The position numbers and the translations under genes were made by a program. This document shows positions 6,072 to 26,008 of a stretch of 35,756 nt of DNA, in pieces. Source of the DNA: Phycisphaerae bacterium (GTDB taxonomy: Bacteria > Planctomycetota > Phycisphaerae > Sedimentisphaerales > Anaerobacaceae); the NCBI GenBank assembly GCA_012744475.1, contig JAAYBV010000079.1, forward strand, positions 1 through 35,756, given 5' to 3'. Positions within the stretch are counted from its first letter, which is position 1. Every line of letters starts with the position of its first letter. Under the pieces are notes generated by a model. The model saw nothing but the letters and a program-made list of their open reading frames with translations, had not been told where the DNA came from and did no database searches.

Positions 6072-7823
6072 CTATTCGAACTGGACATCGAGGGCGATGA
6101 ATTCGACGTTGCTGTTGCCGTTGTAGTGGTTGATCTGGGCCTCGAAGGCGACGTTGAAGAACTCCTTTTCGAGCATCTTCTTTTCGAGGTGGCCCATGCG
6201 GAATCCGACGCAGCGTGCGGCGCCGGTGTTGTCGCTGATGGTGAACTGGAGATGGTCGCTCTTGGCGCCGACGCGTCGTGGCGTGGCGGCCAGCCGCACA
6301 CCCTTGGCCGCGAAAACCGGCTTGGGATTGCCCTGCCCGAACGGGCCCAGCAGGTTCAGTTGCTCGACCGCCTCGCGCGTGAACTGCCTCAGCGGAGCGA
6401 GCGCATCGATGTGGAGCTTGGCGACGACGTCGGCTTCGTGCAGGTGGTCGGCGGCGTAAGCCTCGAAGGCGGCGGCGAAGTCGTCGATCCGCTCCGGCTG
6501 GATCGTCAGGCCCGCCGCCATCGTGTGACCGCCGAACGTCGCCAGGTGGGCTGAGCAGGCCCTGATCGCGCTGAGCAGGCAGAAGCCGGGGATCGAGCGA
6601 GCCGAGCCCTGGGCGGCGCCGTTCTCGCCGGGCGCCGCGTTGATCATGACCGTGGGCCGATAGTATCTATCGACCATCCGCGACGCGACGATGCCGAGCA
6701 CGCCGGTGTGCCAGCCCTCGGCGGCCAGGACGATGCTGCGCCGGTCGGGGTGGTTCAGCCCCCTCTGCACGACCATGTCGCAGGCCTCCTTGACGATTTT
6801 CTTCTCGCACTGCTGGCGTTGGGTGTTCTGGTCCCTGAGGTACTCGGCGATCTGCATGGCCCGCAGATCGTTGGTGCTGGTCATCAGCTCGACCGCCAAG
6901 CGGGCGTGGCCCATGCGGCCGGCGGCGTTGAGCATCGGCGCCAGGCGAAAGCCGATGGCGTAGCTGTCCAGGCCCTGGCCGGTCAGTCCGGCCGAGGCGA
7001 TCAGCGCGCGAAGCCCACACAGCTTGCTCTCGGGCAGCGACCGCAGTCCGAAACTGGTCAGGATGCGGTTCTCGCCTCGCAGGTCCACCACGTCCGCGAC
7101 GGTCCCGATGGCTGCCAGGCTCGTGGCGTTGAGCATGAACTCGCGCAGCTTCGGTTCGAGTCGAGGTCCGCGACTGAACTCCTCCGCCAGCGCCCAGGCA
7201 AGCTTGTAGGCGACCATCGCTCCGGCGGAGTCCTGGTTGGCATACGAAGCCTCCAGGACCGGGTGCACGATGGCGACTGACTCGGGCAGCGTTGCTTCGG
7301 GCGTGTGGTGATCGGTGACGATCAGGTCCATGCCGAGTGTGTGGGCCTGGGCGGCGGCCTCGATCGCGGTGATGCCGCAATCGACCGTCACCAGCAATTT
7401 CGTGCCGGACTGGGCCAGCGAGCGCACCGCGTCGATATTCAGGCCGTAGCCTTCGTCTATCCGATGCGGAATGTAGAAATCGACCGTCGCGCCCAGCAGC
7501 GTCAACAGCTCCCACAGGATCGAGACGCCCGTGATGCCGTCGACGTCGTAGTCGCCGTAAAGGGTGATCTTCTCTTTGCTTTCGATGGCCTGCCGGATTC
7601 GCCACACCGCCGGCTCGATGCCGGGCATCTTGTCCGGGCGAATCAGCTCGGTGAGCTTCGGACGAAGGAAGACGCTGCCGTCGCCGGCTTCGGTGATCCC
7701 CCGATTGAGCAGGACCTGCGCCACCAGGGGCGAAACCCTCAGCGATTGGGCCAGCGGCGCGACCCGCTGGTCGGTCGGCCGGACCACCCACTCGTTCTTC
7801 TGCGTCCTTGCGGATAACAACAT
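6072..7823 (-). CDS. recJ: Single-stranded-DNA-specific 5'-3' exonuclease RecJ
   Basis: 583 residues, normal for RecJ, which degrades 5' single-stranded ends in recombination and mismatch/base-excision repair in the cytoplasm. The DHH phosphoesterase motifs are intact: GDYDVDG (90-96), VTVDCG (145-150) and VTDHH (169-173). The DHHA1 domain shows GSARSIPGF (406-414) and GGHTMAAG (431-438). The C-terminal OB-like domain contains LLGPFGQGNPKPVF. The start ATG at 7823 has only a weak upstream site, but no better in-frame start lies near. Transcription is convergent with the transglutaminase-like gene. Nothing unusual is seen in the sequence. Confidence 0.95.
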   Translation of the reverse strand: MLLSARTQKNEWVVRPTDQRVAPLAQSLRVSPLVAQVLLNRGITEAGDGSVFLRPKLTELIRPDKMPGIEPAVWRIRQAIESKEKITLYGDYDVDGITGVSILWELLTLLGATVDFYIPHRIDEGYGLNIDAVRSLAQSGTKLLVTVDCGITAIEAAAQAHTLGMDLIVTDHHTPEATLPESVAIVHPVLEASYANQDSAGAMVAYKLAWALAEEFSRGPRLEPKLREFMLNATSLAAIGTVADVVDLRGENRILTSFGLRSLPESKLCGLRALIASAGLTGQGLDSYAIGFRLAPMLNAAGRMGHARLAVELMTSTNDLRAMQIAEYLRDQNTQRQQCEKKIVKEACDMVVQRGLNHPDRRSIVLAAEGWHTGVLGIVASRMVDRYYRPTVMINAAPGENGAAQGSARSIPGFCLLSAIRACSAHLATFGGHTMAAGLTIQPERIDDFAAAFEAYAADHLHEADVVAKLHIDALAPLRQFTREAVEQLNLLGPFGQGNPKPVFAAKGVRLAATPRRVGAKSDHLQFTISDNTGAARCVGFRMGHLEKKMLEKEFFNVAFEAQINHYNGNSNVEFIALDVQFE

Positions 7824-23374: not shown

Positions 23375-23679
23375 CCAGCGTCTCCCTATCCTAACGGAGC
23401 CCATCAAGCGGTAAATACCTCATCCTTCAACCGACGCACCGCATTTTGCCAACGGCGTTCACAGATTGCAAGCGAAAAAACAACGCGCTTCCAATAAAGT
23501 CGCAGTTTTTTTCGCGACAGCGTGACATTCGCGCGCATCCATCGCGTGCCGCACATCCTTGTAATAAAATGGGCGCGCGAATCGACTTAGCTGTAGTGGC
23601 AAGATGGGCAGGTTCGGTATCTTGCCGCGCGCGACGTACCCGGGTGAACGCGCACGAGTGGAGAGCAAGAGGTCGCTGT
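23375..23679. other. Divergent region between the TPR lipoprotein and sigma factor genes
   Basis: 305 bases, comparatively A/T-rich, with a weak inverted repeat gtcgc...gcgac around a T-tract (23499-23518) and a -10-like taaaat at 23565-23570. AAGAGG at 23667-23672 is the site that sets the sigma-factor start. An open frame on the plus strand extends back to 23446 but its residues look non-coding (rich in Arg, Cys, His). Confidence 0.45.
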
Positions 23680-24210
23680 TTGCAAGTGCATGATTGGAAG
23701 AGAATTACTGAAGAGCATGCGTCGGCGGTTTGGCAGACCGCATATCGTCTGCTGCACAATCAAGCGGACGCGGCGGATTGCCTGCAAGAAACGTTCCTGG
23801 CCGCCTTCGAATTGGCGCAGCGTCAGCGCGTGCGCAACATTCGCGGCCTGCTGCTGCGTCTGGCGACGACGCGAGCGATCGACCGCCTGCGCCAGCGCAC
23901 GCGGCGAGCACGCCAGGAATCGGAGTGCGAAGACTGGCAGCAGCTCGCCAGCGCCGAACCAGGGCCCGACAGCGAGGCGCAATCGTGCGAACTGGCCGCC
24001 CGCTTGCGCGCCGCCATCGGGCAACTGCCGGCGCAGGAAGCCAAAGTGTTTTGCCTGCGGCACTTTAACGAGCTGAGTTACCGCCAGATTGCCAAAGAGC
24101 TTCAAATCACTACCGGCGCCGCGGGGGTGCTGCTGCACCGCGCCAAGACGAAACTGCGCGAGCTGCTGGCGCCGGTCGAGGAAGAAACGAGGTTGCCCTA
24201 TGGAACATGA
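23680..24210 (+). CDS. ECF-type RNA polymerase sigma factor
   Basis: 176 residues from TTG 23680, seven bases after AAGAGG; the ECF fold begins right there (DWKRITEEHASAVWQTAYRL), while the upstream open frame has no sigma-like content. GTG 23686 is another possible start. Region 2 includes LLHNQADAADCLQETFLAAF and the DNA-melting/-10 helix ending RLRQRTRR; region 4 is LPAQEAKVFCLRHFNELSYR plus QIAKELQITTGAAGVLLHRA, a helix-turn-helix for the -35 box. It overlaps the next gene by 11 nt, the usual arrangement of a sigma factor with its inhibitor. It probably directs its own operon; I could not find a matching -35/-10 pair. Confidence 0.93.
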   Translation: MQVHDWKRITEEHASAVWQTAYRLLHNQADAADCLQETFLAAFELAQRQRVRNIRGLLLRLATTRAIDRLRQRTRRARQESECEDWQQLASAEPGPDSEAQSCELAARLRAAIGQLPAQEAKVFCLRHFNELSYRQIAKELQITTGAAGVLLHRAKTKLRELLAPVEEETRLPYGT

Positions 24211-24922
24211 CGACGACATTCTCCAACGCGCGATCGAACAGTGCCGGAACGAGGCCATTCCTCCGCATCCGCCGCAAGCGGTGGTCGATGCAACAGTTGC
24301 GACGCTGGCGGAAGCCGCCGCACGTAAGGCGGACTCGCCGCGTCAGCGAAACACGCACGTCTTGCGGCTGACGACGAGATTTGCCGCCGCCGCAGCCGTG
24401 TTGATCTTCGCCGGCTACGCTGTGGGCAGACTCTCGGCGCCTCGAACCCTCGACATCGAACAGTTGCGTCAGGCAGTGGAGGCCTCGCTGGCCACCTCGA
24501 TCGAGCCGACCGTGCGCCAAAGAGTGATCGAAGACCTCGGCCGGCAGTGGCAGGCGACGCTCGAGACGACGTATGTCGCGCTGCGAGAGGACCTTACTGT
24601 GCAGTACCGACACGAGCTTGCGCAGGTCGCCGTCCAGACGCTGGCCGCTTCCAACGCCAACACCAATCGGCTGCTTGAAAACCTGATCGAGTCGATCAAC
24701 GTCGCCGACATGCAGAAACGTCAATGGTTTGTGGCCGGCCTGGAACAGATCCACACGGCGCGCCGTCAGGACAACACGCAGTTCGCCGACGCGCTGGTCA
24801 GCTTCGCCAGCGCCGTGGGCGGCGAATTCGAACGCACGAAGCAAGATATGGTCAACCTGCTGGCCGAGACGCGCGGGGGTGCCGGCGCGCCCGATCAGCC
24901 TGATTCAGCCACCAAAGACTAA
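24200..24922 (+). CDS. Probable membrane anti-sigma factor
   Basis: 240 residues; the ATG lies inside the sigma gene (11-nt overlap), with GAGG seven bases upstream, so translation is coupled. Topology: a cytoplasmic N-terminus of about 58 residues (MEHDDDILQRAIEQCRN, IPPHPPQAVVDATVATLAEA), one membrane helix (RFAAAAAVLIFAGYAVGRL, about 60-78), then about 160 extracytoplasmic residues that are almost wholly helical and may form a coiled coil (EASLATSIEPTVRQRVIEDL, LLENLIESINVADMQKRQW). There is no zinc-binding HxxxCxxC motif, so it is not a ZAS-type anti-sigma factor; assignment rests on gene position and topology. The long helical outer part may sense an envelope signal, possibly through the next gene's product. 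Confidence 0.72.
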   Translation: MEHDDDILQRAIEQCRNEAIPPHPPQAVVDATVATLAEAAARKADSPRQRNTHVLRLTTRFAAAAAVLIFAGYAVGRLSAPRTLDIEQLRQAVEASLATSIEPTVRQRVIEDLGRQWQATLETTYVALREDLTVQYRHELAQVAVQTLAASNANTNRLLENLIESINVADMQKRQWFVAGLEQIHTARRQDNTQFADALVSFASAVGGEFERTKQDMVNLLAETRGGAGAPDQPDSATKD

Positions 24923-24934
24923 AGGAGCAACAAG

Positions 24935-25951
24935 ATGAATCTGATTTGCCGAACGTCCGCCCTCGTTACCACCGTTATTCTCGTTCTGGTCTCTCCTGGC
25001 AGCGCCCAAGTGGCGTCCAGCGGCGGGGAGTCGGCCCCGACCCCCCCGACGACCGTCAGCATGACTGTCCCGCCCGCCACAGACCGATTGCGCAGCGTCT
25101 TCGAGATGAAGACCCTCGGCTCCACGAACCGCTCCCCGGCGGTGGTCATCGTGCCGGACAGGCAGATGACTACCGACGAACTGACGAACATCACCGAGGA
25201 CGTCACTGTGATGAGGCGTATCCTGGAGAACAAGCTCCGGCAGGCCAACCTTCTGCCACCCGCAGGCCCGTTCTCCCACCTTGTCGGGTACGCTTACCCG
25301 TACTTCGCCGGAGGCGACGGCGACGCAGGGCGGAGCATGTATCTCCAGGGCTACGGCCTTCTGTACGTGATGGACGTCGACTATCCGCTCGCGCCGGGAC
25401 TGCAGGCCGAACCCAACGAAACACCCGAGCCGAAATTGGAGGGAGATCCGCTATGGGCCAGGACCCGTGACGAGATCTACCAACCGCAGCGGCTGGACCG
25501 CAAGAAGGGCGCAGGCGAGTCAAGGCCGACTTACAGCGCAGAAAAGGTCGAGAACCTCACGACGGCGGTCGTCCAGACGCTCGTCCACGCCGCCAACATC
25601 CGGTGCCTGGCGCCGGAAGAGTCGGTCATCCTAAGGCTGACAGGAAGCCCTGAATCCGCCGGCGAAACGATCGCGATAACGGGAACAGGCCAGATCGTGG
25701 TCAAGAGCAACAACGACGTGCGCATTGTGGAGGGCCCTTTGGCCGAAACGGCGCAGACCGTGCTGACGATCCGAGCCAAACAGGCCGACATCAAGGCTCG
25801 CGCGGAAGGCAAACTGACCGACGAGCAGTTCCGCCAGCGCGTCCAGATTCTCTCACAGCCCGTGCTCGGTGCGGCGATGGACGTGCTGCCGGTCTCGCCC
25901 GGTGCGTCCACGAGTACCGGTCAGCGGCGTACCGGCAGTCGTAGCCGTTGA
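24935..25951 (+). CDS. Secreted protein of unknown function in the ECF sigma operon
   Basis: 338 residues with a signal peptide (LVTTVILVLVSPGSA, cleavage near residue 24). Twelve nt after the anti-sigma stop and preceded by AAAGGAG, it is clearly the third gene of that operon. It has no motif I can name. Recognisable blocks are VVIVPDRQMTTDELTNITED, RILENKLRQANL and a glycine/tyrosine-rich stretch ending GRSMYLQGYGLLYVMDVDYP (about 127-150), an acidic/Pro segment (EPNETPEPKLEGDPLW), and a C-terminal half with IAITGTGQIVVKSNN. The basic, low-complexity tail ends RRTGSRSR. I recall similar LQGYG-containing proteins next to sigma/anti-sigma pairs in other Phycisphaerae, but I cannot confirm this here. 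A signal-responsive envelope protein is the simplest guess. Confidence 0.7.
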   Translation: MNLICRTSALVTTVILVLVSPGSAQVASSGGESAPTPPTTVSMTVPPATDRLRSVFEMKTLGSTNRSPAVVIVPDRQMTTDELTNITEDVTVMRRILENKLRQANLLPPAGPFSHLVGYAYPYFAGGDGDAGRSMYLQGYGLLYVMDVDYPLAPGLQAEPNETPEPKLEGDPLWARTRDEIYQPQRLDRKKGAGESRPTYSAEKVENLTTAVVQTLVHAANIRCLAPEESVILRLTGSPESAGETIAITGTGQIVVKSNNDVRIVEGPLAETAQTVLTIRAKQADIKARAEGKLTDEQFRQRVQILSQPVLGAAMDVLPVSPGASTSTGQRRTGSRSR

Positions 25952-25969: not shown

Positions 25970-26008
25970 GACGCCCGCGGCGCGACCGCGCCGTGGGCGT
26001 CTTCTTTC
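25970..26008 (+). terminator. Terminator hairpin after the ECF sigma operon
   Basis: gacgcccgcggcgc (25970-25983), loop gacc, gcgccgtgggcgtc (25988-26001): a 14-bp stem with one wobble, followed by ttctttc on the plus strand. It lies between the convergent ends of the operon and gyrB; the minus strand lacks a T-run, so it mainly serves the operon. Confidence 0.8.

Follow-up and report, generated by a model that had tools for sequence, protein, structure and literature searches.

Three adjacent genes of a Phycisphaerae bacterium probably encode a gene-switching protein, its membrane brake and an exported partner of that brake. They lie in the window, by which we mean the whole stretch of DNA that was analysed (35,756 nucleotides). 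We consider it probable that they form a self-contained, autoregulated ECF circuit in which the second protein (P2) is the anti-sigma factor and the third (P3) is a dedicated partner of the P2 outer domain, one that may restrain release of the sigma factor as RseB does. Support for this circuit comes from gene linkage in both directions, from the exchange of P2 heads among related systems and from upstream motifs that are specific to sigma clades.

A compact operon led by an ECF sigma factor

The three genes form one tight operon on the forward strand, ending in a terminator. An earlier note on this DNA had described an 11-nt overlap followed by a 12-nt gap, and our coordinates reproduce this exactly: the sigma and P2 genes share 11 nt, and the spacer between P2 and P3 is 12 nt. 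The terminator that it had placed at the end of the operon was likewise found, as a strong hairpin 3' of P3 with a modest T tail; 1 of 200 shuffles folded equally well. The features are as follows.

23560..23586, + strand: promoter-like motif TGTAATAAA-N14-CGAC, a candidate autoregulated ECF promoter
23680..24210, + strand: ECF sigma factor, 176 aa (TIGR02937, Sigma70_r2, r4_2; A clade); TTG at 23680 and GTG at 23686 are both possible start codons
24200..24922, + strand: P2, candidate single-pass membrane anti-sigma factor, 240 aa (from position, zf-HC2-headed homologues and an outer domain kept across head types)
24200..24370, + strand: P2 cytoplasmic head, residues 1-57, non-zinc, putatively sigma-binding (42-residue head model)
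24371..24436, + strand: P2 transmembrane helix, residues ~58-79 (hydropathy; conserved columns)
24437..24919, + strand: P2 extracytoplasmic domain, predicted helical (AlphaFold2, low pTM; outer-domain model)
24935..25951, + strand: P3, exported LQGYG protein, 338 aa (homologue matches; predicted alpha/beta core)
25970..26001, + strand: intrinsic-terminator-like hairpin, 14-pair stem, tail TTCTTTCG, fold z -4.0

The first gene encodes an ECF sigma factor, matching TIGR02937 at E 5e-27 and the Pfam models for regions 2 and 4, the only regions that ECF sigma factors have. In the sigma tree it belongs to a clade of 39 rows (the A clade, SH-aLRT support 99), made up of the 28 sigma factors of A-type triads and 11 that lie beside further proteins with an A-type head. 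The ECF superfamily model has 67 matches over cut-off in this 5.75-Mb genome. Elsewhere in it, nine ECF-model matches, two of them probably one ORF, form an unusual cluster within ~16 kb (G000:C104:19062-34918).

P2 is very probably an anti-sigma factor

Hydropathy gives P2 a single hydrophobic segment (windows within residues 52-81, peak at 61-79), with a conserved G-Y-x-x-G-R-L-S motif at the outer end of the transmembrane helix and an outer part of ~160 residues; the protein has one cysteine and no HxxxCxxC. One membrane helix, about 160 residues beyond it and no zinc anti-sigma motif had been claimed from the letters, and the hydropathy and motif checks agree. The window P2 thus stands outside the zinc-binding anti-sigma factors, which carry HxxxCxxC in the cytoplasmic head. 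It gave no credible match in Pfam or NCBIfam and no relative among PDB sequences (best E 0.08). AlphaFold2 models the outer part as one long helix, residues 86-226, at a mean pLDDT of 68 and a pTM of 0.26, a fold that we do not trust, and in the single chain it predicts two head helices, 2-17 and 26-43, at pLDDT values of roughly 60-70.

The identity of P2 is carried by its homologues. In Verrucomicrobia, P2 homologues give matches to zf-HC2 (of five tested, four exceed the Pfam cut-off), and a second system in the same genome (L033) has a P2 paralogue with HxxxCxxC that matches zf-HC2 at E 4e-7. Among 83 tabulated P2 proteins, 26 have a zinc head (HxxxCxxC before the membrane helix), 30 are of A type, the non-zinc type of the window P2, 17 of B type, 5 of C type, 1 other and 4 unreadable; we sorted out types B and C by visual inspection of the sequences, and A is what remained. 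A 27th zinc case is locus L200, fetched after the models were built, with a sigma gene, a zinc-motif P2 whose outer domain matches at E 1e-7, and P3; L198-L200 enter the linkage count only and stand outside the head, motif and tree tables. The earlier proposal that P2 is the inhibitor is strongly supported because homologous P2 proteins carry zinc anti-sigma (zf-HC2) heads; binding of the sigma factor by the window's own head stays putative. We conclude from these comparisons that P2 is very probably an anti-sigma factor.

P3 is exported and matches no Pfam or NCBIfam family

P3 had been described as an exported protein with no nameable domain, a description borne out by its hydrophobic, signal-peptide-like N-terminus (judged by hydropathy only) and by the Pfam and NCBIfam searches, which returned no family at E up to 1. 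A search of PDB sequences found no relative (best E 0.94). The AlphaFold2 model has a confident alpha/beta core, with blocks 71-110, 201-240 and 271-310 at 84-98 pLDDT, and loose loops that leave the whole at a mean pLDDT of 69.5 and a pTM of 0.60. Foldseek gave no usable fold from this model (110 rows, best E 0.73). The first structural rows from VIA-align are CamS, the sex pheromone cAM373 precursor (3n2q: Z 7.5, rmsd 3.7, 107 residues; 3ib5: Z 6.1, rmsd 4.5, 109 residues), at 11-12% identity and below the tool's caution line of Z 8, with the next row at Z 3.5; the PDB sequence search gave no match between CamS and P3. We treat a CamS fold for P3 as a lead only, suggested by the model. The P3 structural matches listed include neither RseB nor CnrX, an absence to which we attach no evidential weight.

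The length of the P3 ORF ranges from ~280 to 960 residues among loci. Of four long P3 proteins scanned, two match carboxypeptidase-regulatory repeats, both under cut-off, and the other two do not; in the homologue at L162:5064-6281, a stretch that looks TPR-like by eye forms an insertion within the core's variable region. Tandem P3 copies occur in 16 of 90 tabulated loci (L042, L044, L045, L050, L053 and others), and the duplication is old in part of the tree, because first and second copies form separate branches there. A constant core with variable outer parts would suit a receptor that passes varied signals to a constant partner.

P3 genes follow sigma and P2 genes in two phyla

Queried with the window P3, 49 of 161 genomes of the order match (own included), among them all five other members of the genus, and G000:C84 of this genome carries a further copy. 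A P3 profile scan of named genomes found 21 loci, 16 in Planctomycetes and 5 in Verrucomicrobia, where one genome has a second copy; a single-protein P3 scan of genome contigs found no relative. A phylum-wide profile search, insensitive because at most 5 candidates per genome were scored, matched at least 6 of 392 genomes, own included. A Verrucomicrobial P3 query picked out 1 of 387 genomes, that of the query itself, so either few Verrucomicrobia have the family or the query is too narrow.

We built profiles for the sigma factor, P2 and P3 from the fetched loci, which were gathered through P3 or P2 matches and come mostly from metagenome-assembled genomes, and read the gene order in each. Second copies of the same places were dropped before counting (L093-L107, L110, L114-L122), leaving 90 tabulated P3 loci, and three added places bring the sample to 93, six of them Verrucomicrobial; a few of the places may be pieces of a single gene split between contigs. 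The earlier note had asked whether P3 homologues always follow sigma/anti-sigma pairs. They do so in full, with a sigma gene and a distinct P2 gene 5' of them on the same strand, in 74 of 93 places; the rest are 6 with remnants or with a zinc-finger anti-sigma gene replacing P2, 12 that are cut, and 1 clear orphan.

At L058 (7641-8027) and L158 (~6250-6500), the start of a sigma gene runs into the end of a P2 gene, with P3 present, the same kind of event in two genomes and either internal deletion or assembly error; the L058 remnants share one ORF, which the sigma and P2 models both match, and L158 was read by eye, the outer-domain model reaching only E 0.014. Four loci from other families of the phylum (L159-L162) have a sigma gene, a zf-HC2 ORF (above the Pfam cut-off in two loci and below it in the other two) and P3. 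Among the cut places, L048, L051, L069 and L143 have P2 on a contig that ends before the sigma gene, and at L062, L063, L067, L083, L157 and L199 the contig ends at or inside P3. We rejected L076 and L090 as exceptions to the linkage; both contain assembly gaps, and L076 retains P2. The sole true orphan is L198 (4978-6378, on G020:C423), which has repeats and a start that looks lipoprotein-like by eye, with no sigma or P2 gene in the 4.9 kb of upstream sequence that was covered; two ORFs follow it, which by eye we take to resemble LptF/LptG permeases.

The linkage also holds in reverse. The P2 search of the 161 genomes was independent of P3, and its matches reaching the outer domain were included in the loci read: 78 of 80 P2 outer domains have P3 downstream, and the other two stop at the contig edge. 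Chance adjacency was rejected: for a random gene, the likelihood of an ECF match on its own strand in the 2.5 kb before it is ~1.5%.

Heads and outer domains are exchanged

A model of the outer domain only, built from 27 A-type P2 proteins and run on 9332 ORFs at E<0.001, recovers 17/17 B-type, 5/5 C-type and 22/26 zinc P2 proteins, the misses being L159-L162. Its only further matches are two P2 proteins at contig ends, and reversed ORFs gave none; the outer domain is therefore one family under several heads.

The converse holds for the head. A model of the 42-residue A head found 11 further proteins at E<0.1, each directly after a sigma gene that falls in the A clade (support 99). Of these proteins, L135, L136 and L137 are truncated or represent P2 at the edge of a contig; in the remaining eight the head is joined to a different outer part, for example a FecR domain in L128 and L130 or carboxypeptidase-regulatory repeats in L124, L126 and L127. 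None of the eight systems shows a P3; seven of them are informative, because the L130 contig ends there. Head type thus tracks sigma clade, and the outer domain tracks P3. As read from these alignments and trees, two modules recombine, sigma factor with head and outer domain with P3, a pattern that points to a physical or functional bond within each pair. Head type changes 12 times on the P3 tree, supported branches forcing fewer, and the number of exchanges is not fixed because support is weak for the deep branches of both the P3 tree and the sigma tree. The B-type trios L061, L066, L070, L075, L078, L079, L085, L091, L138 and L139 adjoin a second sigma gene, which comes with a short anti-sigma-like gene of a different sort.

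Promoter-like motifs are specific to sigma clades

The motif [TC]GTAATAAA-N13/14-CGAC lies 5' of every A-clade triad but one (27 of 28; L060 is the exception) and of none of 49 others. Most A-clade sigma genes with other outer domains are also preceded by it, with spacing within 1-2 bases. B-type operons have [CT]TGCGC-N14-16-CGTCTA in 17/17 cases and at L140, and a zinc subgroup that includes the second copy in this genome has TG[TC]AAT-N15-18-TGTC[TC] (9 of 25 zinc loci); no shared upstream motif was found in the C type or in the other 16 of 25 zinc loci. The motifs cross no clade boundary except at L140, which has a B-clade sigma factor and an unreadable head. The commonest exact word pair occurs in 26/28 A, 11/17 B and 6/25 zinc loci, against at most 3, 2 and 3, respectively, in five letter shuffles each, and in 2/5 C-type loci against 2 in shuffles. 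Because the patterns were fitted on these same, related sequences, the motif counts are descriptions with an internal contrast and not independent tests.

In its own genome, the A motif has one site, even with one mismatch allowed, and five of six genomes of the genus have one site. Across the family (89 genomes), 59 exact sites were counted, compared with 32 matches to the backward pattern, so an extra site elsewhere is no evidence by itself. The motif of the second system has 5 sites in this genome at up to two mismatches against 6 backwards, and only its own site stands out. According to the available text of PMC8103513, which gives an early criterion, the usual autoregulated ECF promoter has AAC at -35 and CGT at -10; the A motif has plausible spacing, but its -35-like TAAT and -10-like CGAC differ from these. 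We infer that TGTAATAAA-N14-CGAC is a candidate autoregulated promoter of the operon, from which the leader would be ~90 nt. About 95 nt 5' of it, TTGCAAG followed by an A run (window 23466-23480) is conserved in several A-type relatives. At L147:579-847, a copy of the promoter motif and a truncated sigma start lie ~3.8 kb 5' of the full operon, a partial duplication.

A proposed circuit and its alternatives

In the circuit that we propose, the short cytoplasmic head of P2 would hold the sigma factor at the membrane, and exported P3 would sit on the outer rod of P2 and control its cleavage or shape. A signal altering P3 or its contact with P2 would lead P2 to give up its hold on the sigma factor, regulated proteolysis being the most likely means; this genome has two M50 protease ORFs, which are weak support because the family matches in all 14 control genomes. 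Free sigma factor would then transcribe its own operon from the candidate promoter, making more sigma factor, brake and partner. P3 may normally restrain release, as RseB does, and a trigger role is also possible.

As the main alternative, P3 could be the output, a surface or periplasmic protein made on demand by the sigma factor, with P2 sensing something else. P3 is the sole further gene behind the only A-motif site in the genome, and its signal-peptide-like start, its wide range of lengths, its tandem copies and the orphan at L198 would all suit such a product. A mere target, however, should follow the sigma factor, and P3 instead keeps to the P2 outer domain through several sigma clades, each with its own upstream motif, and does not show up where A-clade sigma genes are paired with other outer domains; we regard the output role as unlikely, with a real share of the probability nonetheless. 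A more far-reaching view, which we rate as less likely than not, takes P3 and the P2 outer domain as a portable receptor module, joined in evolution to at least four separate sigma/anti-sigma-head pairs (three non-zinc types besides the zinc type). The sigma factor would serve only its own operon in this genome, so P3 would be both detector and product, in a closed loop that keeps one exported protein at a steady amount or state of assembly.

Two further accounts concern what P2 and P3 do to their partners. P2 might be more than a pure inhibitor and act in the manner of FecR, with a share in activating the sigma factor, as the A heads on the FecR-domain proteins L128 and L130 would allow, but homologous P2 proteins bear the zf-HC2 heads typical of inhibitors and the window P2 has no FecR domain, which makes this improbable. 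More improbable still is that P3 is an enzyme modifying P2 or a cell-wall ligand. It does have a small set of invariant or near-invariant residues, polar ones included (E88, D89, D171, W174, H218, N221), but it matched no enzyme family, and His218 and others are missing by eye in distant members; the suggestion in the earlier note that the secreted protein modifies the inhibitor found no support on the same grounds. P3 as an RseB-like partner of the P2 outer domain is the reading that we retain.

Discussion

ECF systems with a third component are already known. In Escherichia coli RpoE-RseA-RseB, a third, periplasmic protein encoded in the same operon binds the anti-sigma outer domain, and the promoter is autoregulated (available text of PMC8103513). 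Our trio shares the combination of sigma factor, probable membrane anti-sigma factor and exported third protein. It differs in that the P2 outer domain is modelled as one long helix and in that the operon's own motif site is the only one found in the genome. P3 is not a member of MucB_RseB, which we take to be the Pfam model name for the RseB family, because it matches no Pfam family.

The CnrH-CnrY-CnrX system offers another likeness, in the short non-zinc P2 head with its two predicted helices and in the exported third protein. CnrX is a helical periplasmic partner. Anti-sigma domains of class II, the CnrY-like class, grip the sigma factor with two short helices. The anti-sigma factor CnrY of Cupriavidus metallidurans has two helices (available text of PMC7406223). 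Our trio differs in having no family match, a P2 outer domain of 160 residues and a P3 predicted to be alpha/beta. Neither P3 nor the window P2 matched CnrX/Metal_resist; one P2 homologue (L103) reached Metal_resist at E 0.05, under the family cut-off. With the zinc-binding class I anti-sigma factors (zf-HC2), the likeness is shared by 26 of 83 P2 proteins and L200, whereas the window P2 is without the motif. The link to FecI-FecR is that an A-type head and an A-clade sigma factor occur with FecR domains in L128 and L130.

A literature search, within the parts of the sources available, found no published description of the trio. As far as Pfam, NCBIfam and the searched literature show, the P3 family, the A-type head and the exchange pattern are new. 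To our knowledge, the signals sensed by ECF systems in Planctomycetes are largely unknown. For a genome with 67 ECF-model matches, the trio provides one recurring sensory module with named parts, and candidate promoters can now be named for the main sigma clades. The 42-residue non-zinc head is a probable anti-sigma domain that Pfam and NCBIfam miss, and one outer domain on different anti-sigma heads amounts to a natural exchange experiment. With P3, a family that Pfam and NCBIfam lack joins RseB and CnrX as a third component of such systems. The trio recurs in relatives and in a second phylum, which identifies it as a so far undescribed form of a familiar class of surface or stress sensor.
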